From positions 1 to 60,725 of the IMG/VR virus record IMGVR_UViG_3300036985_003137: a stretch of DNA of 60,725 bases; one strand, given 5' to 3'. The notes under the pieces were generated by a model. It saw only the letters and a list, made by a program, of their open reading frames with translations, had not been told where the DNA came from and ran no database searches. Source of the stretch: a virus. Shown piece by piece: positions 2,192 to 55,530 of the stretch (its first letter is position 1; each line of letters starts with the position of its first letter). The translations under genes and the position numbers were made by a program.

Positions 2192-5100
2192 CTAAACTAA
2201 TAAGCCAATAGTCATCCGTTTATATAACGAATCCCAATATCCAAATACCCCATCCCTTAGTGGATTATACCCAGCATGGTGTATTAATGAACTATCTGTA
2301 ATCACAGGACCTAGATGGACTAGTTGATTAAATAACAGCATCGTCATTACTCTACCAGGTTGTTCTTTAGAAATTCTAACTAACTCTTTCTGAATATATA
2401 AGAAATATTTAGTAAAGAGTGTAAATCCCATATCATCAGAATACTGCAGAGTGCGTTGCATAGGCGTAGAGTATTGAACGAATGCACTATTTGCTCTAGC
2501 TACGGCATCAATGTGTACCATTGGATTAGTTTTATTCATTTGGTGTTGATACATCGCATATCTAGCTACAAAATCTGATAACTGAGTAATATGTGCTAGT
2601 GCTTTATATGCACCAGATTCTCTAGTCATTAACACTGCTTTAAGGGCTGTTAGAGCTGAGGCAGGAATACCTTCACTCATGATATCAAACTGTTTTTCAA
2701 GCTGTGTTCTAAAGCCAAATTCAGCATCTGCATCAAGATCTTCTACAATTGTAGGTAGTAAACCCGCTTCAATTAAAGGAGTCACAGGATTTCTTTTGAT
2801 AGCGTCTTGCAGCTGTATAATTTGTCGCTCATCCTCTTTAGTTGCACGCCCTAACTCTTTCTTCAGTAGTAAAGCATCAAGGTGTTTCTTATCATTAAGA
2901 TACTGTGTTGCCCCTTTAAAGGCCACTGAGAAGTAATGTGCCATATTCTTTAATGGAATACCTTCTAGCATTAACCTAGATACGTTACTAAAAATATTAC
3001 CAAGTAAAACTGTACCACTAACAACAACAATTTTATCCTTCATATCAGACACAATTTCTTGCCATCCAGCTTCTGCTCTTGTTACAAACATAGCAGCACG
3101 TTTAGCATACCGTTTAGCTTCTGCTGGAGATTTACCTCGTGCTTTAGCGGACATCTCTAAGGACTCTTCAACAAAGGATATAACCAGCTTCTGAATAATA
3201 TTAATAGACTTTAGGTCCATTATATTGTCAGACTGACCTGCTTCAAGGCGATGAGCTCTTTCATTATTAGCTCTTTCAAATGGTGCTGCCATAGATACTT
3301 TACGATACCCAAATACCATATCCAATGTTTGATTGTTAACCATAATATGTTCGTTACCAAATATGTCTAATGCAGCTGCTTTAGTTTTTTCAGGTAGTCG
3401 ATACCAAATTGATCTCAGTTCTGCATCTTCAGATTTAGGACCTACTTCTACCATCTTCTGTCTATCAACAGCATTACTAGCAGTGAAATTATCAAACAAT
3501 GCTTTCATAGCTTCTTTATTGTGTTCTTCAGTACTTTGCTTTCCTAAGAGCGAACCAGCTAATGTACCTAGCACAGCATCAAAGCTATTACGTCTTTCTA
3601 ATACTGAGTTCTTCATATTCTCACTCATTAGATATACCCAGTTAGTTATGACACCTTCTGAGTTATATTCAGGAGCCATATATGCTTCAGCTATATTAGG
3701 ATTAAAAGCTATGGCATATGTTGCTGCTTTCATACTACTACGTTTCGATTTGATGTGTGCTCTTGCTTCAGCTTCTTTCAGGCCTTCTGGGGTATTGAGA
3801 TTTTGTTCCCCTGTTGTAACCCTAACTTCAGTAGACGAATTGCTGCCCATCTGCATAACCCCACCTACTTGTGAAGGTGGTTTCATATCACGCTGGACAT
3901 AATAGTGTCTTGGAGACTGATCAGCATCATCTGGATCCCGTTGTAGTTCACCTACTTGCTCATACCCAAGCTCCCTTAATCGCTTTCCTTCTTTATCATC
4001 CCCAACACGGATTTTAGTGAAGGGATTATACTTTTCATGGATGTTACCAAATGGTGCTTTAGAAGGATCACTGTCATAGATATTTGTTAACTCAATATGT
4101 GCTAAATGAGCGTGCATAAGTAACGCATACTCCATACCATTGACCTCTTCTTTAGGTCTTGCAGCTTCAATCTTCATTACCTCACTAACAGCAGCCCTAT
4201 CTACTTCAGGCGTATGTCTTAATGTAAAGAGTGTTGCTAACTTTGAAACCATAGGCTCAATTTCATCTATCTTGGTTTGAGTAAGTTTATTATTAGCTTC
4301 CCCAAAACTGTGAATGATCTGATACACATTACGTTTCAGAACTTTAACCTTAACTTCACCTGTAGCACTGTAGTACCCAAGACCTTCTGCATTAGTAAGC
4401 ATTTGATTATAGGTAGCATCACTAGATGTCAGAGCATTCTTTAGTTCTAGGGACTGAGCTGTAATGTGCTCTTCTAACTTAGTTGGATCAGCTAGTAGGT
4501 TTTGCATTTCTTGAAGTGAATATCCTTTAAGGAGTGCACTCATGTTGGATTTTAATACAACAGCAGTAATAGCATTCTTCACAGCAGGAGTAAGATTCTT
4601 ACCCTTGTTAACGAAGGTTTCCAAGACATTTTTGGTTGTACTATCAATCATAGTTTTACGGTCTTTATCTAAGAGATCTCGACCTAAACGTAACAGCTCT
4701 ACCCATTGATCATATCCTTTTACGTTATTGATTAAACCAGCAACGACACCTAACTTACTTCCTTTTTTAGGGTCATTAAGGAGTGTTAACATCATAGATA
4801 GAAATTCTTGCTGTTTGTGTGAAACGTGTTTCTTCACTAACCCTGCAATAGCTCGAACCAGTACAAATCTATTATGCTGAACGAAGTGTGAATCTAAACC
4901 AGTAATAACACTCTTACCTGCAGCGTTAGCTAACTTATCTAACTTGGACTCTACGTCACGTATTGGAGATGCCTCAGCTTCTCGTTGTAACTCAAGGACA
5001 GCTTGATAGGATAATTCAGTATCAACTAATTTACTGATTAACGTATCAAGTCGGTGATTACTAAGAGATGACTCATGTGTGCTAGTCCATCCATGTATTG

Positions 5101-8100
5101 CATCTAAGATCTTCTCAAAGATTGATTGTAGTTTCTTTGCCCATGACTGTTTACCTTTACTGGTTTTGTTTACGACGTGTTTATCCAATAACGCATGAAA
5201 GCCAGGATTAGTTAATCCAACTGCAGCAAACCTTGCTAAGTAATCTGATTTACCTTCTGCATTTAACGTAACTTTAAAGATTGAGTCATAAAGGTGTTCT
5301 GCTTCTTTGGTTGATGTAGTACCAAAGTCACTACCGTAGAATTCATTAGGTGTGAGGGTAGTTCTAACTGATTCATACAAGGCTCTTAGGTCTCTGTATG
5401 CTTGGAAGGTATGTAGCTCATTTCCTTTACCAAACGCAGCAATAGTGGCATATACCTGTTCCATGACAAAGGCTTGTTTACTATCTGTAACTAAACCAGA
5501 TTTAACTAATTCTTTGCTAAGTGGTGTGAGATTTTCCGAAGCATTTCTTTTCCACACTCCAGCAGCATCAAGTTTCTTAGATTTAATAGCCGATTTAATA
5601 ACACCAAAGGGTCCATGGAGCTTAGTAACTACAGAGTTAAGTAAAGATTTAAGGTGTGTTTCAAATGCTGCATCTGTTGTATTACTTGATAAGGCATCAA
5701 AGGTCTCTGTGGTCGAAAAGTTGGTCGTAGCATTAGCTTTCATAGGGAGATTTAGGTTAGCCTGGTATACCTCTTTAGTTTCCTTAGCTACATCAATTAA
5801 ATCAGATATATCATCTATGAAGGTACGTAATCCTGTTGCGTCTTTATCGGTTAGACCTAGAAGATGTTTAACAGCATTTGTAAATTGTTCCCATCTTTTA
5901 CTTATTACACCTTTAATTTTATTGAGCACATTTTTTTGAAAGTCGGTATCTGTTAAACCATGTGCAACAAATTCTTGTAACATAGCGAACTTAGCTTCCT
6001 TTGAGGTAACTGCATTCGGTTGGGCTAGAAAGTCACCGTACTGCTCTACTAAACCTGGATTAGCTTCTTCAATTGAAGTCCTTAGACGCTCCAAACTGTT
6101 AATAGCATTTCTGGCTTTGATGTTTAAACTGTCACTACCGAGTGTTATACCTTGTTGGCTCTTATCAATTGTGTTTGCTATGGAAGCATGTATTAACTCA
6201 TGTAGTAAGACAGCTGCTATAGAATCAGTTTGCCCCATCTTTGGTGTCATGATGATAATACGTTGACCATCCTCGTCTGAAATGAATCTGCCTAAATCGT
6301 CTTTATATGTGTGTGCCTCACCATCTACTTCTGGATCCAGGTAATAAATCTCCAGATTATCAGGTAATAAGGGGACGATTTGCTCAAGTAATTTTAGTTT
6401 ATATGCCTCTTCCTTTTCTACACTTAATGCTGCTTTTAACTCTTCGTGTATCTCCCCAAATGTTGTGGCTTTTTGTAGTGTATCTATTAAAGTAGACGGA
6501 GTTATGGACATACCTAACTTGTGTGTAGCCTTGTTTAATGCTGCCATATCTTTAGGCTTATTAATTTCTGAAAGTTTCTTTTCGATACTTTCGCGATATT
6601 CATCTGTTACTAGGGCTTCTGCACCATTACGAGAATACTGATTTGCACTACCTGTTGCGTTAAGTGCCTCAAGTTTAACTCTATCTACACTAATAGCCTG
6701 AGCTTGGAGATCTCTATGCATGTCGGCAAGATTAGTCCAACCAAGTTTTTTTGATTCTGTAGCCACCATGTCATTTATAGAGTCTAGCTCTTCTGTAGTT
6801 AAGTCTTGTTTACTTAACCATACTATTTGTCTTTCAATAGTATCTGCTAGTGCTTGAGTAGGTGAGTAACTTATCATCAGTTCAAGGAAGGCCTCATTAA
6901 GATATTTAGTCATAATAGGCAAACCATCTATACCACCAACAGCAGCATCGAATAGATTGAGTGTAACTACTCCATCTTTTCTTGCCTTTTCACGGGCTAA
7001 GTACATTACAGCACTATCAAAAGAATGAGTCATTCTTGAGATTGTTGCAACAGCCATAGGACCAAATCTTCGAACCATTGCTGCATATAGTTTAGATTGG
7101 ATCTTATCCGCTCCTGTGATTACATTGATGTCATGATTACGATTATCATCTGGTATATTGGTGTCTTCCATCAATAACATGCCAGTATATATATTATCAG
7201 GATCAGATGAAGCTGTGGGCAGCATAGGTAATCCACCCTCTAGGATCATACCGTCTAATATTTTATCCATCTCTTCGTTAGATAAGCCTTCTAGGGCACG
7301 TCGAGTATCGCTTATATTATTTGGATCAAGAGTACCTGAAAATTCCATAGTGACTCCCTTTGTCTGATCCTTTACAAACTCAAGAGTTCCTTTACTTATG
7401 GATGCAGCAACCCGTTTTTCATACTGGTTAGCAGCAATTGTGCCCATAATACGTACAGCAGTATTGATCTTTTTTGTGTGTTCTAAAAAGTGTTCAAAGG
7501 TTACTTTCATAGAGTCAGTAATACTTTTACCTATGGTTATTTCATATGTAGCTCTAATTGCTGTCTCTAGCCCATGATTAAAGATAGGACTAGGATCTTG
7601 GATAATATTTTCCCCTTTCTGTATATACCCCATTAATTTTAGTGCGGATGTATTTGCAGGAATCGGTGTGTATGTACCTGAATGTTGAGGATGTAGTGCT
7701 GCAATAGTATTTAAAGCAGTAATAATACTTGCTCTGGTTTCTGCATTCTCTAATTCTCGTGATGCATACGCTTTAGAAATTACATCCTTAATTGTGATTA
7801 TGAAATCTGAACTAGTTTTAACTAATGCTGTATTGATACCTGCCCCAAAGAAAAACATTAATATAGGTTCTTTTACTACTTCTCTTAATGAATCTGAGGG
7901 GTCATTAGTATTTTCCTTTTTCATTTTTCCAATAAAGTGTTCTATTGCTCGTAGAGTTATTAGAACTTGCTTACCCAACACATGCTGAGTTTTATACTTA
8001 GTGATTTTTAGTTTTATTCCTTTGGTGGCGGCTGCTGTTAAACGTACTACTGCTTGCATAGCAGTATTCATATAAAGATCTTTACCGCCTTTACTTTTAT

Positions 8101-11100
8101 AGTCATCAAAGTGGGTTAATGCATCTTCAAGTGTATAAATACCAAATTGTTTATTAAATTCAATAGATTCTTCTACTGTTAGGTGTGCTCCTAATAGGTT
8201 TGTCGCAATAGCAGCACCATTAGTTTTACCATCTGATTCTGATGTAATGGTAGTAGTAAAAGAATCATCACCATTATTTTGGGCAAACTGTCTTTGAGCT
8301 AATGCCATTAAACCAGCAAACGCATGTGTATCTGTTTTAGCTTCTTGAACAGTAGCTACTACTATTGATTGATCTTCTTCTGTTAGCGTTCCGTTATCGC
8401 CTTGTTCTAATAACCTAACTAATGCATCAATAGCAGGCTGATATTTAGAGTATTTATTATCCAAATCTTCATTTAATTGAGCTGCAGTTTTAAGGTCTAA
8501 TGATTCAGCAACAAATTGCTCAAATACATCCATCTTTAAAGTATCAGATCCATCAAGCTTAATTGTTGTTTCCCAAGATTTATGGGACATGAGCCATCTT
8601 ATAACTTTACTAGACTGAGGATTAAAGACTTGACCTACAATCCCAGTACGTTGTTGTACGTACATTTCAGTTGAAAAGAATACTGCAATATCTTCAAGAC
8701 TGGGGTACCCTGCCATGAATCCTTTTAATTTATTTATGCTATCAAGTATGCCTTTTTGAGATGCTTCTACTCCAGGCATAAGATCAGCATGTACTAGTGG
8801 ATGTGTTCCACTAGGTGAGTATAAAGCAACATTTCCTGCTATGAGCTCTTGGTTCGTATCACTAAACCCCATGAAGGCACGTGATGTAGTAGCTGCAACG
8901 CCATAAGCTACTTTGTTTTCTGCTGCTATGTCATCACGAATTCTGCTAGGTACAATATGGTTATTGTCCTGTACATAATTAAAAGCTTCTGTACGTATAA
9001 TTTCAGCCTCTTTTTCATTGTCAAAAAGCTTAGATATAAATTGTTTAGAGGTCCTATTATAGATGATTAGTTCAGATACCTTATCAGATAACCTGGTTTT
9101 ACCATTTACTGGAGCCCCTTGTGCTAATTTAATAAAGGAGTGCGGTTTCTTCTGATCAGCTGTCTTTTGAGCTGGTGGTAAATCCTTATAGTATTTTGAG
9201 TCCTGAGCCAGTTGAATGTCCATCTCGGATATTTCAAAAGATTCCAAGTACTTATCTTTTATAAGAGCAGCAATAACTCTTCCACCAATAGACGTAGCTA
9301 GTTCGGGTGAAATATTATCAGGTGTTGCACTATTCTCTTTAATTGCTAACAATTTGAGTACGGTTTGTCCGATCTCATTTGCGGCTGCATTCTGTGTTGA
9401 CGTGGCCTCAGGAAATAACCTCAATAGTGCGACAGGTGTATTTTTTTCTTTCCGACCTACTAGAGCATTAGCCATATCTCCTGTAGGGATCCTACCTTCT
9501 AAAGACACAATATAGCTGTATGCACTAGCAGCAAATGCAGAAGCTAAGTTATCATCTATACTTAAAGTACCATCCTCTTCTACATTAATAAGGTCACTAG
9601 ATCTGTCTCTTCTTTCATTTGTTGGGGTTGATTTTATATTAACAATATTACCACCTTTGGCCGTGAAACCCTGTGCACTGAAACCAGCTAATATAGTATT
9701 ACTTAGGTCAGTTTTTAAGTCTCTAAAGTGCTTAAAGGCATCATTCTGTTCTTTTGTTACATCTTGACCTTTATTCAATTTAATAAGGGCAGCTATAGAC
9801 TTAATTGAGGATATAACATCTCGTGTTTTAGTTAATACAGTACTACCTAATTTTTGTATTAGGGTTTCTGACGTACGGTCTTGTATGCGTTTATCAGCTT
9901 TAGCTTCATCAGTTTGGTTATACTCACGGCCTGCAATAAGGCTTGATAATTCAGATGATTTGGCAGGGAATTCTGCTATCTCAGCTTCATGTTTAATCTT
10001 TAAGGCAGCAAGAGCTTTTTCATATTTCTCAATGTCTTGCTCTGTTCTATCGTTTTCATCACCTAAGTCCCGAATCTCTTCAGCGTGTCTTTGATATAGT
10101 GCTTCTTCTAACTTATCGACTTCATTAGGGACTCTTGTAGTAACTACTGCTTCTGGGTTATTGGTTACTGCTTTTTCCTCAGCTATCATCTTATTTAATG
10201 CATCTGGATCTGGGGTAGTATTATCTTCCTCAAATGTAGTGTCTTCTTCTGTACTAATATTACCTGGATCTTGGGTATTGGTAGTTGTACCTGTAGTGCT
10301 ACTGTTTGTCTTTCCAGGTGCGGTCCAGAGTGAGTATTTAATACCTTCTATGGTTTCCTGGGGTGTTTCGGTATAGCTTTTAGATTCTAATAAGGCTGCA
10401 GCTCGTTTTTCACCTGCCTGTGGATCTGTTGTTTCGTTGTGAGCATCTTTATCTCTTTGGTCTTTATCAAAGGTCATAAAGCTTGCCCCTTTCTCAATAC
10501 CAGCATTAACACTTTTTGTTATATTTTTGTGGTCAAATTCCTTATTCACATTGAGAAATATCACATCATCTTTGGAATAAACTGTTGAGTTTACAATATC
10601 TAAGGAACTCTTCGTTGCATGATCTCGCCACTGTTTAGTAATGAATGCAGATATTGATTTTTTACCTTTCGCCTCTTCCCCAATAATATGTGTTGCTATA
10701 TTAGATAAGGCTATATTTGTCTTATTCTTAGCATTAGCTGGGAGTGTTACCGTAATTTCCTTACCTACAGGTGTTTTAGCTGTGTTATTAATAGATTCAG
10801 TAGCACCTCCTTCTGTACCTACACTATCTGTTGATTTAACTACTGGTGGGTTACTAGTAGTAGCTTTTGTATTAGTAGTAGTAGTAGTAGTAGTAGTAGG
10901 TGGCACTATTGGTGGAGGGGCACTTGTAGTAGGGGCAGCAGTCTTACCTGTAACATGGCCTAACATTGATTTTAGATCATGTACTTCTTGTTGTATTCTT
11001 CCATAAGGACTGATGCCTGTTGCTAAGGTTTTTTGAAAGGTGTCATCTCCGACAGTATAATTACCTGGAACAGCTTGAGCTTCTATACCATCAATTAGGT

Positions 11101-13348
11101 CTGTAGGGGCATACTGTTTCCATACTTGACTATCTTTCTCACGAATAAGAGTAATCTTATCTTTCCCTTCCTTCTTACGACGCACATTAGCAGCTACAAT
11201 GGCTTCATCTTTTGCAGCTTGTCCTTCTACAAATTTTTGAAATAGTGCTTTGCTGGCAGTCTTTTCTTCTGGTGTAGCAGTAGGATCATTGATAGCATCC
11301 CAATGTTGACGCATACCCATATTCTTAGAAGATCCATCATAAATCTCATTGGACACAGCATTAGTATCTTTACCTTGATTCCGCTTATTTAGTGTCATTC
11401 TCAAGAGAGCGGTATCTACATCACTGAACATGCTTATATCTTTTTGACCCATAGCTAATGCTGTTGCTGCTTGTGCTTTAGTCAATCGACTACTCATAGC
11501 CAAACTAAGAACACGATTCTTAGCCTTAGTTACTACTTCAGGGTCAGCATGTGTAAGATTATCTACTGCCTCATTAGTACTTTTCTCAGAATTTACTTCT
11601 CCGTGTATCTGATCTAAGGTTGATTTAAGGGAGTCATAATTTACTTGTGCAGACGTTTCTTTTGCTTTTAATGCCGTAACATATCCGGTCATGCTGGGAT
11701 CTGACAGTGCTGCTAATTGATCTTGTTTAAGTTTTATGACTACATCTGCTTCTGCTACCCGCTCTATATTACCCGCTGCCTCTTCAGTCTTCTTAATACC
11801 TTGAAGGTTTGTAATTGTGGTATTAAGACCTTCCTCACTTAATATCTTAGATATATCTGTGACCTTTTTCTTAGCTACTGCAACAAGCTCATCTGCACTT
11901 TTTATTGCTTCGTCATGTATCTCAGTTATTTTTTCAGGTGTATACGGAGTTGTTCCTTCCTTAGGAGGTGCATTTGTATCAATAACACGTTGATGTAATC
12001 CAGTCATTGCTTCTTCAGGTGTAAGAGGAGAGTTAGAGTCTGCTGCTCCTGATATGTCACCTGATTTAGCTACAGCAGCTATACGGTCAGAGCTTTGTTT
12101 ATTCACTTCTGCATACGTACCTGCCTGCTCCTCTGTACTAGCTTGTTGTTCTTCTTTAGTTGTTTTTAATTTATCAACTACAGCATCTTTTGCTACTACA
12201 GCAGTATCTTTAGCTCCATTCATAGCTCTTACAGCCATGTGTGTTCCAGTAGCTTGTCCTAGTGAGGATACTCCTTCTAATACTGCTGATTTAGGATCTG
12301 CTACTCCAGTAGCTGCATATTGACCTGAGTATTCACCTAAACCTTCAGAACCCATTTCTAAGCCTACGCCTGTTGCTGCAGATTTAACTTTACCCATTAG
12401 TGCTTGTGATGCTAATAAGTTAACGTCAGAAGCAATCTCTGCTTTAATTGCAGGTTTAGCCAGCACATCCGATACTAATTTAGGATTAAGTAGATCACTT
12501 GGTGCCATTCGTTTAGCTAGTACATTTTCAGTAGCAGTACGTAAAGGTGCATTTAATAGTGCACCTCCTAAACCTATAGTAGCTGTATCTACAGCACCAA
12601 TAACCCCGCTTTTAATTAAATTTTCTTTTAAGAGTTCATCTCTATTTTGATTAATAAACTGTTGGGCTTCTTGGTTATCCCAAATATTTACACCCTCTTT
12701 TTGAATCATGTTTTGGAGTAACTCATTTTGTCCTGATGCCATATTGCCAAATGTTGCTCCAGTGTATACACCAGCTGCCGTTCCTAAAGGATTTCCTGTA
12801 AGACTGCCTAATGCTCCCCCAATAGCCATGCCCCCCATTGTAGGAATAGAGTTGGGAATTTGCTCTACAACTCCACCCCCTAATGCCTTAAAGTTTTCCC
12901 ATAGAGCATTTGCACCTTTACCAAGAGTTGGTGCATCAGCGCTGTCTCGATAGATGTTCTTAGCTACATCAGTAATACCCTGTCCGGCTGCGGCAAAGGA
13001 TTGTGTATTACCTTCTGCGTCCTTAGCTGCATCATATAAAGCAGATAACTCTCGAGCTGCTGCTGATGATGGATTAGCTTGTCTATATCTCTCGTCTGCT
13101 TGTAACTGTTTAACTGCTGCTTCAGCATCCTTATTGATCAAGTTTATACCCTGATTAAAGGACGAATCTAGGTTGTGCATCCCTTTTTCCCAAGGGCTGT
13201 CTGCCACTGCAGCTAGCGCATTTTGCTGATTAACGGCTGCTTCAGGGCTTAATATATAAGCCTTAAATGCTTCAGTTTTCTGTTGTGCCGCTACTGCAAC
13301 TTCTAGTGCTTTTTGTGTAAAAGTATCTTGAGATATTGGGGATGCCAT
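2192..13348 (-). CDS. Giant virion-encapsidated RNA polymerase (vRNAP), N4 gp50-like
   Basis: The 3718-residue protein is packaged in the head and injected to transcribe early genes from hairpin promoters. Residues 1-880 are Ala-rich and helical with a glycine-zipper stretch (about 168-210), possibly for membrane passage, then a Pro/Thr linker near 820-840. The central T7-type polymerase shows motif I ending at Arg1567 before FNPQ, motif A with Asp1706 (DGKTNG), motif B with Arg1822, Lys1826 and Phe1834, an HSFDS block and motif C with Asp2134. The spacing from motif A Asp to motif B Arg (116) is near the 107 recalled for N4. Phe1834 replaces the usual Tyr, and motif C has Phe-Asp instead of His-Asp. 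Downstream, H2383-E-L-I-H2387 with Glu2459 resembles a zinc metallopeptidase. The remaining 1200 residues are helical, of unknown function. It is the last gene of the leftward virion module. Confidence 0.93.
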   Translation of the reverse strand: MASPISQDTFTQKALEVAVAAQQKTEAFKAYILSPEAAVNQQNALAAVADSPWEKGMHNLDSSFNQGINLINKDAEAAVKQLQADERYRQANPSSAAARELSALYDAAKDAEGNTQSFAAAGQGITDVAKNIYRDSADAPTLGKGANALWENFKALGGGVVEQIPNSIPTMGGMAIGGALGSLTGNPLGTAAGVYTGATFGNMASGQNELLQNMIQKEGVNIWDNQEAQQFINQNRDELLKENLIKSGVIGAVDTATIGLGGALLNAPLRTATENVLAKRMAPSDLLNPKLVSDVLAKPAIKAEIASDVNLLASQALMGKVKSAATGVGLEMGSEGLGEYSGQYAATGVADPKSAVLEGVSSLGQATGTHMAVRAMNGAKDTAVVAKDAVVDKLKTTKEEQQASTEEQAGTYAEVNKQSSDRIAAVAKSGDISGAADSNSPLTPEEAMTGLHQRVIDTNAPPKEGTTPYTPEKITEIHDEAIKSADELVAVAKKKVTDISKILSEEGLNTTITNLQGIKKTEEAAGNIERVAEADVVIKLKQDQLAALSDPSMTGYVTALKAKETSAQVNYDSLKSTLDQIHGEVNSEKSTNEAVDNLTHADPEVVTKAKNRVLSLAMSSRLTKAQAATALAMGQKDISMFSDVDTALLRMTLNKRNQGKDTNAVSNEIYDGSSKNMGMRQHWDAINDPTATPEEKTASKALFQKFVEGQAAKDEAIVAANVRRKKEGKDKITLIREKDSQVWKQYAPTDLIDGIEAQAVPGNYTVGDDTFQKTLATGISPYGRIQQEVHDLKSMLGHVTGKTAAPTTSAPPPIVPPTTTTTTTTNTKATTSNPPVVKSTDSVGTEGGATESINNTAKTPVGKEITVTLPANAKNKTNIALSNIATHIIGEEAKGKKSISAFITKQWRDHATKSSLDIVNSTVYSKDDVIFLNVNKEFDHKNITKSVNAGIEKGASFMTFDKDQRDKDAHNETTDPQAGEKRAAALLESKSYTETPQETIEGIKYSLWTAPGKTNSSTTGTTTNTQDPGNISTEEDTTFEEDNTTPDPDALNKMIAEEKAVTNNPEAVVTTRVPNEVDKLEEALYQRHAEEIRDLGDENDRTEQDIEKYEKALAALKIKHEAEIAEFPAKSSELSSLIAGREYNQTDEAKADKRIQDRTSETLIQKLGSTVLTKTRDVISSIKSIAALIKLNKGQDVTKEQNDAFKHFRDLKTDLSNTILAGFSAQGFTAKGGNIVNIKSTPTNERRDRSSDLINVEEDGTLSIDDNLASAFAASAYSYIVSLEGRIPTGDMANALVGRKEKNTPVALLRLFPEATSTQNAAANEIGQTVLKLLAIKENSATPDNISPELATSIGGRVIAALIKDKYLESFEISEMDIQLAQDSKYYKDLPPAQKTADQKKPHSFIKLAQGAPVNGKTRLSDKVSELIIYNRTSKQFISKLFDNEKEAEIIRTEAFNYVQDNNHIVPSRIRDDIAAENKVAYGVAATTSRAFMGFSDTNQELIAGNVALYSPSGTHPLVHADLMPGVEASQKGILDSINKLKGFMAGYPSLEDIAVFFSTEMYVQQRTGIVGQVFNPQSSKVIRWLMSHKSWETTIKLDGSDTLKMDVFEQFVAESLDLKTAAQLNEDLDNKYSKYQPAIDALVRLLEQGDNGTLTEEDQSIVVATVQEAKTDTHAFAGLMALAQRQFAQNNGDDSFTTTITSESDGKTNGAAIATNLLGAHLTVEESIEFNKQFGIYTLEDALTHFDDYKSKGGKDLYMNTAMQAVVRLTAAATKGIKLKITKYKTQHVLGKQVLITLRAIEHFIGKMKKENTNDPSDSLREVVKEPILMFFFGAGINTALVKTSSDFIITIKDVISKAYASRELENAETRASIITALNTIAALHPQHSGTYTPIPANTSALKLMGYIQKGENIIQDPSPIFNHGLETAIRATYEITIGKSITDSMKVTFEHFLEHTKKINTAVRIMGTIAANQYEKRVAASISKGTLEFVKDQTKGVTMEFSGTLDPNNISDTRRALEGLSNEEMDKILDGMILEGGLPMLPTASSDPDNIYTGMLLMEDTNIPDDNRNHDINVITGADKIQSKLYAAMVRRFGPMAVATISRMTHSFDSAVMYLAREKARKDGVVTLNLFDAAVGGIDGLPIMTKYLNEAFLELMISYSPTQALADTIERQIVWLSKQDLTTEELDSINDMVATESKKLGWTNLADMHRDLQAQAISVDRVKLEALNATGSANQYSRNGAEALVTDEYRESIEKKLSEINKPKDMAALNKATHKLGMSITPSTLIDTLQKATTFGEIHEELKAALSVEKEEAYKLKLLEQIVPLLPDNLEIYYLDPEVDGEAHTYKDDLGRFISDEDGQRIIIMTPKMGQTDSIAAVLLHELIHASIANTIDKSQQGITLGSDSLNIKARNAINSLERLRTSIEEANPGLVEQYGDFLAQPNAVTSKEAKFAMLQEFVAHGLTDTDFQKNVLNKIKGVISKRWEQFTNAVKHLLGLTDKDATGLRTFIDDISDLIDVAKETKEVYQANLNLPMKANATTNFSTTETFDALSSNTTDAAFETHLKSLLNSVVTKLHGPFGVIKSAIKSKKLDAAGVWKRNASENLTPLSKELVKSGLVTDSKQAFVMEQVYATIAAFGKGNELHTFQAYRDLRALYESVRTTLTPNEFYGSDFGTTSTKEAEHLYDSIFKVTLNAEGKSDYLARFAAVGLTNPGFHALLDKHVVNKTSKGKQSWAKKLQSIFEKILDAIHGWTSTHESSLSNHRLDTLISKLVDTELSYQAVLELQREAEASPIRDVESKLDKLANAAGKSVITGLDSHFVQHNRFVLVRAIAGLVKKHVSHKQQEFLSMMLTLLNDPKKGSKLGVVAGLINNVKGYDQWVELLRLGRDLLDKDRKTMIDSTTKNVLETFVNKGKNLTPAVKNAITAVVLKSNMSALLKGYSLQEMQNLLADPTKLEEHITAQSLELKNALTSSDATYNQMLTNAEGLGYYSATGEVKVKVLKRNVYQIIHSFGEANNKLTQTKIDEIEPMVSKLATLFTLRHTPEVDRAAVSEVMKIEAARPKEEVNGMEYALLMHAHLAHIELTNIYDSDPSKAPFGNIHEKYNPFTKIRVGDDKEGKRLRELGYEQVGELQRDPDDADQSPRHYYVQRDMKPPSQVGGVMQMGSNSSTEVRVTTGEQNLNTPEGLKEAEARAHIKSKRSSMKAATYAIAFNPNIAEAYMAPEYNSEGVITNWVYLMSENMKNSVLERRNSFDAVLGTLAGSLLGKQSTEEHNKEAMKALFDNFTASNAVDRQKMVEVGPKSEDAELRSIWYRLPEKTKAAALDIFGNEHIMVNNQTLDMVFGYRKVSMAAPFERANNERAHRLEAGQSDNIMDLKSINIIQKLVISFVEESLEMSAKARGKSPAEAKRYAKRAAMFVTRAEAGWQEIVSDMKDKIVVVSGTVLLGNIFSNVSRLMLEGIPLKNMAHYFSVAFKGATQYLNDKKHLDALLLKKELGRATKEDERQIIQLQDAIKRNPVTPLIEAGLLPTIVEDLDADAEFGFRTQLEKQFDIMSEGIPASALTALKAVLMTRESGAYKALAHITQLSDFVARYAMYQHQMNKTNPMVHIDAVARANSAFVQYSTPMQRTLQYSDDMGFTLFTKYFLYIQKELVRISKEQPGRVMTMLLFNQLVHLGPVITDSSLIHHAGYNPLRDGVFGYWDSLYKRMTIGLLV

Positions 13349-31373: not shown

Positions 31374-32306
31374 ATGCAAGCACAGATTGAACAGCACTAC
31401 AGTAAAGACAAAATAAGACGAATGATGAAATCATTCATTGTCGATAACATTGAGCCAGAGCAGATTGAACAAGGTGTAAAGCTGTTAACTGAGTGGATAA
31501 ATGTTGATTATTATCCCAGTAAGAATCGTAGATTGTTACATGTACGTGATTTAGATTTATCTAAGATAGTTGTTGATGTAATAGTAGGCACACTATCATT
31601 TACTGAAGAAACATTGCTTACAAATGCTGTAGGACAGTTAGCAGGTTTATTAAAGATGTCTGACAAGTTAGATAGTATTAAAACTATGTCAGAAGTATTG
31701 GCTATCTTATGTGAGCTTGATTTATATGATCTAAATAAAGATGATGAAACTGATAGCTGGACTATTATCAGTTTAATTGAACTACCTGAAGAAATCCAAG
31801 ACCAACAAGTACGTAGTATGTACCTTCCTCCAATGATTGTTAAGCCAGAAATACTTACACATAATATGGATAGTGGGTATCAGACACAGCATTCTAGTTT
31901 GATCTTAGGTAGTGGAAATTACCATGAAGGAGACATTACATTAGATGCATTGAACATTATGGCATCAGTACCCTTGAGTATAAATATCGAGTTTATCAGC
32001 ACTATTAAAGAAGAGCCAAATAAAGAAATCTCAGCTGATTTGATATTAGAAGATTACCCAGAATTAACAGATGAAGAGGCTATTGAAGAAGCAAAGTTTA
32101 GGATTGCTATGTTTGATAGATTTGTAAAACAGTCACAAGAAGTATGTGATTTATTGATTGAGACTGGGAATAAATTCTATCTAAATCAAAAGGTTGATAA
32201 AAGAGGTAGAGTATATGCACAAGGATATCATGTAAGTACAGCAGGTGCATCGTACAAGAAAGCAGCAATAGAGTTATACAACGAAGAAATAGTAGAAGGC
32301 ATTTAG
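31374..32306 (+). CDS. RNA polymerase II small subunit, N4 gp15-like
   Basis: 310 residues. The C-terminus carries the T7-family T/DxxGR motif as DKRGRVYAQ (Asp275, Arg279), followed by AGYK-type spacing and an ELYNEEIVEG end like the T7 segment after its DWRGR motif. The rest would be the N-terminal domain. N4 splits RNAPII into gp15 (about 269 residues) and gp16 (about 404), and this pair (310 and 413) has the same break point after the DxxGR block. The product pairs with the next gene's protein to transcribe middle genes. ACCGGAGATAGTC gives a good ribosome site. Confidence 0.9.
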   Translation: MQAQIEQHYSKDKIRRMMKSFIVDNIEPEQIEQGVKLLTEWINVDYYPSKNRRLLHVRDLDLSKIVVDVIVGTLSFTEETLLTNAVGQLAGLLKMSDKLDSIKTMSEVLAILCELDLYDLNKDDETDSWTIISLIELPEEIQDQQVRSMYLPPMIVKPEILTHNMDSGYQTQHSSLILGSGNYHEGDITLDALNIMASVPLSINIEFISTIKEEPNKEISADLILEDYPELTDEEAIEEAKFRIAMFDRFVKQSQEVCDLLIETGNKFYLNQKVDKRGRVYAQGYHVSTAGASYKKAAIELYNEEIVEGI

Positions 32307-32341: not shown

Positions 32342-34639
32342 ATGTTCAAAAGATATAGTGGATGGCAGTGGATGTTAATCAATGCAGCAAATTTAGCAGG
32401 CAAAGATAAATTAACTCATGAACAAAGATTAGATTGGGCTACAGAAAATTTAGGTAAATTGGAAAGTCTTGTAGACGAAGCAGGTAGTGATTACCCACAG
32501 TATATCTCTGCTGTCATGGGTATTAGAAAAGCACAGAATAAACATCCTACAGGACTCTTAGTTACTGTAGATGCAGTATGTAGTGGTATGCAAATAATGA
32601 GTGCTTTAACTGGGTGTTTAAATGGTGCTAAGGCTACTGGATTAGTTGATGATGATCGTAGACCTGATGCATATGCAAGTGTTACAGAAGCCATGAATAA
32701 GAAATTAGGTGGCACACTAAATATCAGTCGTGATGATGCAAAGAGGAGTGTTATGACCTCATTTTATGGTAGTGAGAAAGTACCAGGAGAAGTATTTGGT
32801 GAAGATACAATTGAGCTAGATACTTTCTATGAAGTCATGCAACTAGTAGCACCAGGAGCTTGGGGACTGTTAGGTAAGCTAAAATCAGCTTGGAATCCAG
32901 GTGCATTAGCACATTCATGGAAATTACCAGATGGATTTGATGCTGTAGTTAAGGTCATGGCATCATTTGAGAAGCGGATTGAAGTAGATGAGTTAGATCA
33001 TTCCACATTCACATACTACTACAGCGAAAACCAAGGTAATAAGAAAGGTATTAGTCTTGTAGCTAACGTAGAGTAACTGCGTCACTCATTTGAGAAAATG
33101 AGCAGAAAACAAGGTGAATTGCTGGAACGCTAAGGGAGAAATCCTATGCCAATCAGCAGGTAAGCTTAGAGAGTAATCTCTTTGAAACTTCAGAGACTAG
33201 AACGAGAAGCCTGTATACAGGTCAATAATGTTCGTAGGATACTCAAGTGAGATCCGAAGTGCCTTGCTCCTACTGGAAACAGAGGATGAAGATATAGTCC
33301 GATACTCCAACGAAAGCTGGAGACTTAATATAAATAGTTCTATCCTTAAGCATCTAAGCAGTGTACTATTACATTGATTTAATTAATAAGGAGAAGAGAT
33401 GAAAACCGTAACTGTAAGAGCTAAAAGACCTATAGTTGATATAGCACAAGAACGCTTTGGATCATTAGTAGCCAAAGAGTTTAGTCATAAAGATGCTATT
33501 GGGAATGTATATTGGATTTATACCTGTGATTGTAACAAGTTGCTCACAGCTAGATCCAATGTGATTAAACACCAAACTATACTAAAAAATGATCCTGAAT
33601 TACCTTCATGTGGTTGCGTAGGAATTGCCAGAAAAACAAGGCATGGATATCGCACAGCAAAGAACACACACCCATTATACAGAGTCTACAGAGGCATGAT
33701 GGGTAGATGTTATAGCGAAAGTAATGAAGGAGCTAAGTGGTATGGTGATATTGGTGTAACTGTATGTGATGAGTGGAAAAATAACCCTGAAGCATTTATT
33801 AAATGGGGTTTAGATAATGGATGGAAGCCGAGTCTACATATAGACAAAGATATTCTATCTGAACAGCTATCAATTCATCCTCACATATACAGCCCACAGA
33901 CGTGTCAGTTTGTATCAGCAAAAATCAATGTAGGTTTTGCAACAAACAGGGACAATTACGGTAAGCACCCTAATGTAAAATTATCTCATGATGATGTAGA
34001 AGCTATTAATATTTTAAGAGCTAAAGGATTATCAGGACCTAAGATTGCAGAACAATTTGGTGTTACAGCATGTTCTATTTATGCAGTAATTAAGGGCTAA
34101 GAGAAGCGTCTTAGCTTAACATTTGAGTTCATAGCATTGATGCATTTATTATGCGTGAGATGCACAGAAGATGTAATTACAACCAAGATACGCTTATGGA
34201 TGTTAGTAACCTAATTGAAATTGAGTTACTATCCAGAGAACTAATGAAGCCAGATATATTAGGTAAGAAGTCTCAAGCTACGTATTATGAAGAGTTGTAC
34301 CGTTGTAGTGGTGTTTGTAGTATAGCAGCTGTAAATCATATCACTAATACTACGGTTAAAGGCTTAGATAGTACCTATTTAGGTGAAATGAGTAGAATTA
34401 TCAACATGATCCTAGAACATAAATCCTTTGAATTGGTCTCATTACATGATGCATTTTCAGCTCATGCTAATAATGTAAACCAAGTAAGATGGCATTATAA
34501 AGAGATCTTAGCTGAATTAGCTGACAGTAACACTTTGAGAGATGTTCTAACTCAAATCAATCCACGTATGGAACAGTTTCAGAAGTTGTCTAATACTCTA
34601 TCTGAAAAGATTAGACAGAGTAGTTATGCACTTACATAG
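32342..34639 (+). CDS. RNA polymerase II catalytic subunit, N4 gp16-like; exons 32342-33069 and 34126-34639
   Basis: Spliced, the two exons encode 413 residues, close to N4 gp16. Exon 1 has motif A TVDAVCSGMQ (Asp77) and motif B with Arg130, Lys134 and Tyr142 (AKRSVMTSFYG). Exon 2 restores NVVHSIDAFIMREM, the conserved block before motif C, and then motif C SLHDAF (His350, Asp351). Without splicing, exon 1 stops 7 bases into the intron (TAA at 33074) and exon 2 has no proper start. The subunit works with the 310-residue gene product upstream (35-base gap). Join positions are inferred from frame, protein alignment and intron pairing. Confidence 0.88.
33070..34125 (+). mobile_element. Group I intron (IA-type) in the RNAPII catalytic subunit gene
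   Basis: A 1056-base insertion with group I landmarks. The exon ends in U (33069). P1 pairs ACGU (33066-33069) with GCGU (33079-33082), giving a U-G pair at the cleavage site. P10 pairs AACU (33075-33078) with AGUU at the exon 2 start (34126-34129). P7 pairs GACUA (33195-33199) with UAGUC (33295-33299), the latter inside GATATAGTCC. A P9-like hairpin (33305-33322) has a GAAA loop. The intron ends in G (34125). The endonuclease gene lies after the core. Confidence 0.88.
33399..34100 (+). CDS. Intron-encoded HNH homing endonuclease
   Basis: 233 residues. The N-terminus (ERFGSLVAKEF, then CDCNKLL and PSCGC) resembles the zinc-binding front of phage HNH endonucleases. The middle (THPLYRVYRGMMGRCY, YGDIGVTVCDEW, LHIDKDI) carries the conserved core of that family, and the C-terminal 45 residues (LSHDDVEAINILRAKGLSGPKIAEQFGVT) form a helix-turn-helix like NUMOD DNA-binding tails. 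It would cut intron-free RNAPII genes to drive homing. The start follows AAGGAGAAGAG. The frame ends 25 bases before the 3' splice site and looks intact. Confidence 0.85.
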   Translation: MKTVTVRAKRPIVDIAQERFGSLVAKEFSHKDAIGNVYWIYTCDCNKLLTARSNVIKHQTILKNDPELPSCGCVGIARKTRHGYRTAKNTHPLYRVYRGMMGRCYSESNEGAKWYGDIGVTVCDEWKNNPEAFIKWGLDNGWKPSLHIDKDILSEQLSIHPHIYSPQTCQFVSAKINVGFATNRDNYGKHPNVKLSHDDVEAINILRAKGLSGPKIAEQFGVTACSIYAVIKG

Positions 34640-36107: not shown

Positions 36108-36183
36108 GGGACAATAGCACAATGGTTAGTGCTCTGACCTCATAAGTCAGCGGTTATAGGTTCAAGTCCTATTTGTCCCACCA
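36108..36183 (+). tRNA. tRNA with CAU anticodon (Met elongator or Ile2)
   Basis: A 76-base cloverleaf: acceptor GGGACAA / TTGTCCC, D-arm GCAC / GTGC, anticodon arm CTGAC / GTCAG around CTCATAA, T-arm CCTAT pairing with ATAGG around a TTCAAGT loop, discriminator A, and encoded CCA. CAU reads AUG in elongator tRNA-Met, or AUA if the C is changed to lysidine. The identity cannot be settled from anticodon alone. An AT-rich phage might benefit from AUA decoding. Confidence 0.95.
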
Positions 36184-43243: not shown

Positions 43244-44374
43244 ATGAGTGACAACAAACATGCAGTTACTGCAATCACCAAAGCACGTGTTCAATTGCTT
43301 TTAGACAATCCATTCTTAGGTACCCTAGCTTTAAGAGCTACATTAGTACAGGTAGCAGATGATGATCCAAGAGCTCCAGCATCAACAGATGGATCTCATG
43401 TGTACTATTCACCAACCTTTTGGTTAGACATGACTCCTAAAGAATGTATAGGTGTACTTGCCCATGAGATTGCTCACAATGCATTACTTCATAGTGCGAG
43501 ATTAAAAGGACGTGACCATGAAAAATTTAACCGAGCTGCTGATTATGCCATTAATGATTTATTAGTTAATACCTTTGGTTATTCATTACCAAAAGACTGT
43601 TTATTAGACAGACAATATTATGACCTATCAGCTGAAGAAATATATATTCGTTTAGATGATGCTGAAAAAACGAACGGTAAATCTCCTACACCTAAGTGGG
43701 GTAATGTAATGCCTACAGCTGGGAATACTCCAGCAGAACAATCAGCTAATGAACAAGCTATGGAGTTAGCAGTAAAAAGTGCTGCTCGTATAGCTAAACA
43801 GAGTGGGAAGATGCCAGGATCTCTAGCTCGTATGCTTGATTTTTTAGAGCCCAAAGTTAATTGGAAAGAAGCACTAAGAGACTTTTTAACTGCTAAGTTC
43901 TCACGAGATGACTATCGTTGGTATCCCTGTGATATGCAGTATTTGCACATGGACATCCGAATGCCTTCATTAACAGGAGAAAAGTTTGGTCCAGTAGCTA
44001 TCTGTATTGATACATCTGGTTCTATTGGTCAAAAAGAATTATCAGAGTTCTTAGCTGAAGTATCAGGCATTCTTGAAGACTGTAAACCAGAAAAAGCATT
44101 GGTAATTTACTGTGATGCGGATGTTAATCATGTTGATGAATTTACAGTAGAGGATTTACCTATTAACCCTAAAATGCATGGAGGTGGAGGAACTGACTTT
44201 AGACCTCCATTTGAGTACCTAGAACAGAAAGGTATCTATCCAGAATGTTTGATTTATCTAACAGACATGTATGGACCATTTCCTGATAAAGAACCAGCAT
44301 TCCCTGTTATATGGGCTAGAACCAGTAAATTAAATGCACCCTTTGGAACCCACATTGATTTGGAGTTTAAATAA
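43244..44374 (+). CDS. VWA-domain protein with metallopeptidase-like N-terminus, N4 gp25-like
   Basis: 376 residues. An N-terminal DUF2201-type domain has H74-E-I-A-H78, the HExxH signature of zinc peptidases. The C-terminal von Willebrand A domain has the MIDAS DxSxS as D256-T-S258-G-S260, plus YCDADV and YLTDMYG. It is the partner of the MoxR ATPase at 40865. The pair resembles RavA-ViaA or bacterial MoxR-VWA remodelling systems and is part of the N4-like core. Whether HExxH is catalytic or structural is unknown. Confidence 0.88.
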   Translation: MSDNKHAVTAITKARVQLLLDNPFLGTLALRATLVQVADDDPRAPASTDGSHVYYSPTFWLDMTPKECIGVLAHEIAHNALLHSARLKGRDHEKFNRAADYAINDLLVNTFGYSLPKDCLLDRQYYDLSAEEIYIRLDDAEKTNGKSPTPKWGNVMPTAGNTPAEQSANEQAMELAVKSAARIAKQSGKMPGSLARMLDFLEPKVNWKEALRDFLTAKFSRDDYRWYPCDMQYLHMDIRMPSLTGEKFGPVAICIDTSGSIGQKELSEFLAEVSGILEDCKPEKALVIYCDADVNHVDEFTVEDLPINPKMHGGGGTDFRPPFEYLEQKGIYPECLIYLTDMYGPFPDKEPAFPVIWARTSKLNAPFGTHIDLEFK

Positions 44375-52603: not shown

Positions 52604-53329
52604 TTAACTCCAAAATTGAATAAGTTGTGTTTGTGTTATGCCAGTTCTATTGGCAGAAATTCCTGAATATCTAAGCTGTGAAATATCTGAAATTATCGTA
52701 CTTGCTTTAATAGTGTATATTCTATTAGTAGAGATACTTGTACCTAAAGTAAATATAGTAGCATCCTGTAAGTATAAGATACTACTAATAGATGGTGTAG
52801 AAATCCCTGAATACTTAACCCGTAAAACATCTGTAACTTGATTATTTACTATAGCTGTGAATGGTTTAGCTGATTTTATTCCAGAAATTCTACTTAGTAA
52901 AACATCTGAAATTATCATACTTACTATAGCTGTATTAATTCTATTAGTAGACAATCCTGTACCCATATTAAATACAGAAGCATCCTGTAAGTATAAGGTA
53001 CTACTAATAGGTACTGATTTTACATCTGAATATCTAACCCATAAAACATCTGTAACTAATTTACTTACTATAGTTGCAAATGGTTTAACTGCTTTTATTC
53101 CTGAATATCTAATACGTGATATATCTGTAACTAGATTACTTACTGTAGCTGTACTGATTCTAGTAGTAGAGATGCTTGTACCCATATTAAATACAGAAGC
53201 ATTCGTAAATTTAACACTATTTACTTTTGCTGGGGCAACTGGAGAGATTCCCCGAGCTGAGGAAGTAATTACATTACCTCCTCTAGGAAACCCAAAAATG
53301 TATCCAGTTACCTCAACAATGGTAATCAT
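52604..53329 (-). CDS. Repetitive fibre-associated protein
   Basis: 241 residues built from at least six related segments with pattern V-DV-R-YSGI, and three larger units of about 73 residues containing STNRINTAIVS and LYLQDASVFN. Ser/Thr/Ile-rich beta-helical sequence suits a tail fibre or adhesin. It abuts the 734-residue fibre gene (4-base overlap). The repeats could permit domain shuffling. Role inferred. Confidence 0.62.
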   Translation of the reverse strand: MITIVEVTGYIFGFPRGGNVITSSARGISPVAPAKVNSVKFTNASVFNMGTSISTTRISTATVSNLVTDISRIRYSGIKAVKPFATIVSKLVTDVLWVRYSDVKSVPISSTLYLQDASVFNMGTGLSTNRINTAIVSMIISDVLLSRISGIKSAKPFTAIVNNQVTDVLRVKYSGISTPSISSILYLQDATIFTLGTSISTNRIYTIKASTIISDISQLRYSGISANRTGITQTQLIQFWS

Positions 53330-55530
53330 GCTGGAATTGCTACCTGACCAAGTGAAATTGTTCCAGTAGGATTACCACCTACTGTAATTCCACCATTAAC
53401 ATTACTATATACCTTCAATCCAGTATCAACTGATACATAGATACGAGAACCATCAAAGAATGCCAAGGAGTTTGTAGTAGCAAACGTATTTGTCGACCCT
53501 TGGTCAAGCATCATCACAGAGGCAGTTAGTGTAGTAGTAGCATTTTTGCCTACTGATGTAATAAACCAGTTATTAGCTACTGCTGAATTCTTAGGTATCA
53601 TAACCAATGACCCTTGACACTTAAACGCAGTTAATGCTGTATTAGCAGTCAATGCTGAAGCAGTACCAACACTTTGTGTACTAATTAAAGCACCGGTTCT
53701 TAAATTGAACTGTGATTGATAAATAGTCCCACTTGTTATCGCTTGCCAAGAAATAGCGGTATTTCCATCTAAAACTTGTGTGTTTACATTAGCTGGAATA
53801 CCTGCTGTTTGTAACCCTGTTAATAACGTAGGTGTACCGCCAGCAAATGGGATTTTGATAATTCTAAATGAAGCTGCCGCTACAGGAATAGGTGTAGCTA
53901 AGAAATTTCCTTCAAAATCTGGTTTAATATCACGAATAATTTGCACTTCAGCTGAAGGTAATGCTGGGCAAGTTACAGTAGGAATAGTCGCTGCGGTAAT
54001 AGCTGTTACCGTACCTGTTGATGCTTGTGAGTTGAAGCGGTAGAAGATAGGTGTATTTGATGCGGTAATGGGTGAACAAATAACTGTACCACCATTGATA
54101 CCAAGCGAACTATATCCAACTGAGCTAAATGTTACGAGGGTACTATCATCTGCTGTATCTAATCTTGATAATGATATTCCCACTACGCTTGAAGTGAAAT
54201 ACACATAACGCTCACCATCAAATTCAATATCCGAATAGCCGCCGCCTGTAGCAACAGTACTTACTGTTTTTGTGTCCAGTCTAAATCTTACAACTGAACC
54301 GCCACCAGCCAAAATAGCATAAATTGATACACCGGTATAACAAATGGATTCTGGACGAGCACCCAACGAAAATATCTCACTAGTCCATGATGTATTAGCA
54401 AACCATGAGGTATTATCAGTAGATGCTGTCTTATGATGATTATTTAATAACCAATGTGGTCTATCCGTACCATTGCCAGCTGCATTACCATCACTATCAC
54501 ATGGGATTGTGATTTTGTTCATGTTTTGACCAATTGGAGCTAACACTTTTAAACCAAAGATTTGACCATAGTTAGTAATTGTACCAGCGTAGTCAGAGAT
54601 AGGTTTTACAGGCAGAGTTAATCTGCGTGTAGAGTCCCAACCATTGGAAATAAACTTATTTGCACTGTTTCCTAGATACCAAATAAATGCGTTTACTGTA
54701 GTGGCTAACCAGTTTGGCATAAATGTAGCACCATAATCACCACCCCATCCTTTGGCAGCATTTATACCTGAATAACCTTGTCTAGTTTTCGGCATAGAGA
54801 TTAGAGGATAATCACCTCCGTTTAGTGGTTTACCTGAACCGCCTGCCGTTGCTGCGCCAAGACACCATAGGGTTGATGACACCCAACCGAAGCAAGGATA
54901 ATTAGCAGCCGCTGTATCCATAACATCTTCACGAGCAGTTTCAAAAATACCTGCCCACAAAGAAGATTCATTGTTTATATATGAATGTAGGACACCCCAG
55001 CGTGGAGCAAAGTTAATAATAAAATCACATGATGTTAAGTTAAATCCAATTGGTGCAGAATCCATATAGGTATAGGCTTCATTCACACCAGTATGGCTAG
55101 TAACTGCGGCAGGTGTTGCTAAGTTGTAGTTAGCGGGGCTATCCCAGTATTCAACACATGAAATGTTAACAGTTAGTCGTTTTAAGTTATATCGAATTAC
55201 TGCGTTTTTATAAGTCACAGCGTCTTTATTGATACATCTAAAGACCTGAGTATAAATTGGTGACTGTGTTCCAGAGGTATTATCTTGACCACCCCAGAAT
55301 GAATCAAATAATATCCAACCACTATCTGTCTGTGGCGTAACCCCAGATGCAGCTGTGAATGTAACCCCACCTAGCGCACCAGCTTGCCCAACAGTAGTGT
55401 CTGTGATTGCGTCAGCAATAGTGTTGGCAAAAGTCATAAAAGGAGTTAGTGAACCAGCCCCTGAAGTTGGTGTAAATTGAGTTGATACTTGTATCGTGGA
55501 TTGCCCAATATATTTTGCGGTAATTGTCAT
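53326..55530 (-). CDS. Tail fibre / adhesin-like structural protein
   Basis: 734 residues, beta-rich, Ser/Thr/Gly/Asn-rich, with many aromatic-glycine turns and a C-terminal series of short beta strands (YVSVDTGLKVYSNVNGGI). No enzymatic motif. Similar in style to the truncated protein at the right end of the window. A receptor-binding or sheath-type tail protein is plausible; the N4 sheath gp65 and appendage gp66 are not found elsewhere in the window. Confidence 0.6.
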   Translation of the reverse strand: MTITAKYIGQSTIQVSTQFTPTSGAGSLTPFMTFANTIADAITDTTVGQAGALGGVTFTAASGVTPQTDSGWILFDSFWGGQDNTSGTQSPIYTQVFRCINKDAVTYKNAVIRYNLKRLTVNISCVEYWDSPANYNLATPAAVTSHTGVNEAYTYMDSAPIGFNLTSCDFIINFAPRWGVLHSYINNESSLWAGIFETAREDVMDTAAANYPCFGWVSSTLWCLGAATAGGSGKPLNGGDYPLISMPKTRQGYSGINAAKGWGGDYGATFMPNWLATTVNAFIWYLGNSANKFISNGWDSTRRLTLPVKPISDYAGTITNYGQIFGLKVLAPIGQNMNKITIPCDSDGNAAGNGTDRPHWLLNNHHKTASTDNTSWFANTSWTSEIFSLGARPESICYTGVSIYAILAGGGSVVRFRLDTKTVSTVATGGGYSDIEFDGERYVYFTSSVVGISLSRLDTADDSTLVTFSSVGYSSLGINGGTVICSPITASNTPIFYRFNSQASTGTVTAITAATIPTVTCPALPSAEVQIIRDIKPDFEGNFLATPIPVAAASFRIIKIPFAGGTPTLLTGLQTAGIPANVNTQVLDGNTAISWQAITSGTIYQSQFNLRTGALISTQSVGTASALTANTALTAFKCQGSLVMIPKNSAVANNWFITSVGKNATTTLTASVMMLDQGSTNTFATTNSLAFFDGSRIYVSVDTGLKVYSNVNGGITVGGNPTGTISLGQVAIPA

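Follow-up and report, generated by a model that had tools for sequence, protein, structure and literature searches.

The gene for the catalytic subunit of RNAPII in this N4-like phage breaks off within a conserved block and resumes after an insertion, which raises the question of whether it is split by an intron, encodes two separate polypeptides or has decayed. We addressed this question in the window, that is, the whole stretch of DNA analyzed (positions 1 to 60,725 of the IMG/VR virus record IMGVR_UViG_3300036985_003137; 60.7 kb, 37% GC). The phage was identified as N4-like because the window encodes a 3718-aa virion RNA polymerase (2192-13348, minus strand; phrog_2206 virion RNA polymerase, 1184 bits), and this giant enzyme together with RNAP1 and RNAP2 places it in the Schitoviridae. 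The RNAPII subunit RNAP1 (N4 gp15-like; 31374-32306, plus strand; phrog_2166 N4-like RNA polymerase, E = 1.2e-95) is uninterrupted. An alignment also showed a gene for a tRNA with the anticodon CAU at 36108-36180 (plus strand), shortly downstream of RNAP2, and a 734-aa protein encoded at 53326-55530 (minus strand) had no PHROG match at E 0.001.

RNAP2 (N4 gp16-like) was reconstructed from two exons on the plus strand. Exon 1 (32342-33069) encodes residues 1-242 and the first two bases of codon 243, as delimited by phrog_2051 (E = 2.7e-87), the Pfam family RNA_pol (E = 5.4e-17) and the alignment with N4 RNAP2. Exon 2 (34126-34639) encodes residues 243-413, including the VHSID block and motif C (HD), and was placed by phrog_2051 positions 250-400 and the alignment. 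The unspliced reading frame runs two codons into the insert and stops at 33074-33076, and a 244-aa truncated protein is the sole RNAP2 product that unspliced RNA encodes. Removal of 33070-34125, an insert of exactly the 1056 bases originally predicted, with exon 2 resuming at 34126, yields an in-frame 1242-nt sequence encoding 413 aa and a stop codon. The joined protein is collinear, end to end, with N4 RNAP2 (404 aa; structure 6DT7) and also aligns with the uninterrupted RNAP2 proteins of PEV2, Pollock and N4. Its motifs DxxxSG (77-82), KxxxMTxxYG (134-143), ANVVHSID (241-248) and HD (350-351) occur in that order, in agreement with the predicted motif order and N4 gp16-like length. The insertion point lies between the second and third bases of the Val243 codon, within the conserved ANVVHSID block. 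The correct RNAP2 gene model is thereby settled for such phages, in which annotation pipelines cut the gene into pieces labeled 'RNA polymerase', 'HNH' and 'hypothetical'.

The insert contains a complete group I ribozyme. The Rfam model RF00028 (Intron_gpI) matched at 33031-33322 over its full length with 69.3 bits (E = 1.8e-16; curated cut-off, 50 bits) and matched nowhere else in the 60.7-kb record. A repeated AG at the junctions leaves a 2-nt ambiguity in the intron ends, and 33070-34125 (plus strand) was chosen because group I introns are preceded by U and end in G; here, U33069 precedes the intron and G34125 is its last base. The same junction follows from an intron-free relative, L008, and from the P1 and P10 pairings. 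In P1 (33066-33082), exon bases ACGU (33066-33069) pair with the guide GCGU (33079-33082), which sets a U33069-G33079 wobble at the 5' splice site; P1 as read from the sequence is identical in a distant phage, L095. Directly 5' of the wobble base G33079, the P10 guide AACU (33075-33078) pairs with AGUU (34126-34129), with which exon 2 begins. These elements are followed by P2 (CUCAUUU/AAAUGAG, 33085-33102), read from the sequence and the predicted fold, and by the catalytic core P3-P9 (33110-33322), delimited by the RF00028 match and pair counts. Within the core, P7 is formed by 33195-33199 with 33295-33299, and P7.1, P7.1a and P7.2 occupy 33200-33255. The intron is IA-like in having P7.1/P7.2, a pair of additional helices located between P7 and P3 that we take to mark the IA type. 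Near the 3' end, a peripheral hairpin (GCUAAGA/UCUUAGC, 34096-34115) contains the stop codon of an intron-encoded endonuclease; its L095 counterpart, UCAAGA/UCUUGA, shows compensatory changes.

Minimum-energy folding indicated a structured RNA (z = -2.9, with no shuffle as stable). Because such folding cannot show the P7 pseudoknot, the core was assessed by pair counts for a hand-drawn structure of 52 pairs on an alignment of ten RNAP2 introns. Pairing over the ten introns was 92.2% and dropped to 32-49% when the structure was slid by 1 to 3 columns. Two-sided changes were found in 30 of the 52 pairs, compared to 16.5 in shuffles, and the covariation score was 0.390 against 0.135 for shuffled and 0.05-0.13 for slid versions. 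P7 is present but invariant across the ten sequences and its lack of covariation counts neither for nor against it. Together with the exact ends and an intron-free relative, the RF00028 match confirmed that a group I intron splits the gene of the catalytic subunit, as predicted, and the insert is expected to be self-splicing.

The intron encodes a 233-aa protein (33399-34100, plus strand) preceded by a good ribosome-binding site, AAGGAG. This protein matched phrog_374 HNH endonuclease (E = 1.6e-39) and, with E values no higher than 1e-17, three other HNH PHROGs, and weak matches point to a C-terminal helix-turn-helix. The Pfam scan of the protein gave no HNH match, and its low-confidence AlphaFold model (pLDDT 70, pTM 0.43) had no significant PDB relative by Foldseek. 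The protein is thus presumed to be a homing endonuclease, with a putative HNH subclass that rests on the PHROG profiles. Elsewhere in the window, 43244-44374 (plus strand) encodes another HNH endonuclease-like protein of 376 aa (phrog_1314, E = 2.2e-90), with no Rfam-detectable intron around its gene.

The empty site was found in L008 (74 kb), the nearest IMG/VR relative, in which RNAP2 is 71% identical at the protein level and the DNA is 77% identical upstream and 85% identical downstream of the insertion site. Its RNAP2 gene is uninterrupted, with the sequence ...GISLVANVVHSLDAY... crossing the predicted junction and encoding ANVVHSLDA, so that the comparison with an intron-free relative proposed alongside the original prediction bore it out. 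The dN/dS ratios against L008 of about 0.11 for exon 1 and 0.35 for exon 2 show that both exons are under purifying selection. A scan for close relatives with exon 2 alone confirmed nothing.

L095 (IMG/VR 3300049008_000030) shares the intron of the window, down to the pair of RNAP2 bases between which it is inserted. Its ribozyme core is 84.1% identical to that of the window, and the endonucleases share 69% of their amino acids with a dS of 0.86. In contrast, the surrounding polymerase proteins are only 40.9% (RNAP2 exon 1, with a saturated dS of about 3), 42% (exon 2) and 35% (RNAP1) identical. Since the introns are far closer to each other than the RNAP2 and RNAP1 proteins, the intron and its host gene have different histories, and vertical descent is disfavored because the endonuclease is better conserved than the polymerase around it, synonymous sites included. 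The shared intron is best explained by horizontal homing as the simplest account, and the pair formed by the window and L095 is a clear example of an intron passed between distantly related phages. The presence of the intron at this site in L095 and its absence from L008 are consistent with endonuclease cutting of an intron-free target. Exon 2 of L095 (3734-4004) is short, with ~75 residues missing between VHSID and motif C compared to other N4-like phages.

The observed intron ends, covarying ribozyme, open frame, intron-free allele and recurrence of the intron at an identical position in the distant phage L095 make it highly probable that RNAP2 of this N4-like phage carries a mobile group I intron that is spliced to give the 413-aa protein and is spread by endonuclease homing. 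From these sequence comparisons, we infer splicing in vivo, endonuclease activity and homing as follows. The transcript would fold into the ribozyme and excise itself with a guanosine cofactor, and the joined exons would encode the 413-aa catalytic subunit, which would pair with RNAP1 to form RNAPII. The HNH-type endonuclease would cut or nick the insertion site in RNAP2 alleles that lack the intron, and recombination would then copy the intron into these alleles.

The original prediction also made the onset of middle transcription dependent on splicing. In N4, gp15 and gp16 make the middle RNAs and RNAP2 is needed for middle transcription (PMC4496689); splicing must therefore precede active RNAPII. 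This part of the claim holds, but only trivially, in that no full-length RNAP2 would be made without splicing. A stronger version, in which the intron is a developmental switch whose splicing rate sets the appearance of RNAPII and hence the start of middle transcription, could draw on this requirement and on the truncated product of unspliced RNA. We consider such a switch improbable, given that L008 lacks the intron, that 71 of the 78 judged IMG/VR RNAP2 loci have no insertion at all, that the intron moved horizontally, and that insertions in other phages occupy other RNAP2 sites. Splicing is necessary rather than regulatory, since L008 and the majority of other phages lack the intron. The regulatory part of the claim is thus not supported: patchy presence, horizontal movement and varied sites favor a selfish element over a required control, and a selfish mobile element that is neutral or nearly so is the best reading of the intron.

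It is very unlikely that the two RNAP2 parts are separate assembling polypeptides flanking a freestanding endonuclease gene without splicing. A gene in pieces has a precedent in the split nrdA of phage Aeh1. RNAPII itself corresponds to a T7-like enzyme divided over two polypeptides (PMC4496689), and endonuclease insertion was proposed as the origin of its two subunits in the phage ZC08 report (PMC5418858). However, the ribozyme is complete, and its P1 and P10 fit the sequences of the two exons. The gene is also broken in mid-codon within a conserved block, and exon 2 has its first ATG (34151) only downstream of VHSID, with no ribosome-binding site in front of it. Decay into a pseudogene or an assembly artefact, as might be suspected from the metagenomic source and the stops that interrupt the coding region, is hardly credible, because the frame is intact once exactly one ribozyme-shaped insert is removed, both exons are under purifying selection and the independent record L095 has the same arrangement, which makes an artefact at the exact site very unlikely.

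The group I intron of the window occupies one of several insertion sites in RNAP2. Insertions were found near Gly82 in motif A (FBPa1, L059, L066 and L084), at about residues 120-138 in motif B (pVco-5, L010), after Ala241 (pYD6-A, L004; L079), within codon 243 (the window and L095) and at residues 350-352 in motif C (ZC08, MIF8, the second intron of pYD6-A, Moonfish, ZQ2, D456, L062, L065 and L088). RNAP2 is thus an insertion hot spot, with sites in motif A, motif B, two positions 5 nt apart in ANVVHSID, and motif C. Most of these insertions reach the RF00028 cut-off; apart from the codon-243 site, group I introns occur in motif A, in motif C and at the position 5 nt upstream of it. In L010 (pVco-5, motif B) and in L011, L062 and L088 (all motif C), RNAP2 is interrupted by insertions that fall below the Rfam cut-off, and the group I label was withheld from these four. 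Mobile elements of this kind prefer conserved positions, and the RNAP2 sites in catalytic motifs agree with that preference. Among the 80 IMG/VR loci with an RNAP2 alignment, a sample biased towards uninterrupted genes, 7 are interrupted and 2 run off the contig. Two group I introns occur in the single RNAP2 gene of pYD6-A (L004, 2924-3171 and 3497-3753), the first of them short and seemingly without an endonuclease gene. The closest ribozyme core by DNA in an isolate phage (79% identity) lies at 2954-3208 of the Alteromonas phage AD45-P1 locus (L002), in an unannotated gap beside hypothetical proteins, and no RNAP2 match was found in that locus.

Comparable elements are known from several phages. 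The original prediction knew of no report in N4-like phages, which was overtaken by the literature: an HNH endonuclease inside RNAP2 of the N4-like Pseudomonas phage ZC08 was published in 2017, in a passage that describes no intron in RNAP2 (PMC5418858), and several other public Schitoviridae RNAP2 genes are interrupted. Like the window, ZC08 (KU356691) has an RNAP2 element with an RF00028 match (88.9 bits; core 75% identical), an HNH-type endonuclease inside, a U before the intron and a G at its end; unlike in the window, the insertion lies about 108 codons farther downstream, at motif C (HD). One group I intron of pYD6-A and that of L079 (IMG/VR 3300011802_000001) also interrupt the ANVVHSID block, but after the Ala241 codon, 5 nt upstream. 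Protein alignment had suggested that pYD6-A and the window share one site; this was rejected, as applying the U/G rule places the pYD6-A DNA junction (GCT/AATGTAATT) 5 nt upstream, and the ranges of alignment ambiguity at the two sites are separate. Outside RNAP2, the N4-like Vibrio phage pVa5 has a group I intron with an HNH endonuclease in a different host gene, td (thymidylate synthase) (PMC5746245), and introns were suspected in other genes of N4-like Vibrio phages (PMC3670811).

In the jumbo phage PhiPA3, the group I intron endonuclease gp210, encoded in an RNA polymerase gene, nicks the PhiKZ allele and favors PhiPA3 (PMC11620839). In both systems, a conserved position in the gene for a phage RNA polymerase is occupied by a group I intron that has an HNH endonuclease, whereas the PhiPA3 host gene encodes the virion RNA polymerase beta-subunit of a multi-subunit polymerase and its endonuclease is different. 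By analogy, the RNAP2 intron may possibly confer an advantage in co-infection. A more speculative extension, to which we give little weight, is that RNAP2 introns are a recurrent endonuclease weapon that would disable a rival's intron-free RNAPII gene before middle transcription, with lineages seeded at at least five sites. No paper on the codon-243 insertion site was found in the openly accessible literature; the insertion site and this particular intron are new, and the kind of element that they represent is already known in RNAP2.
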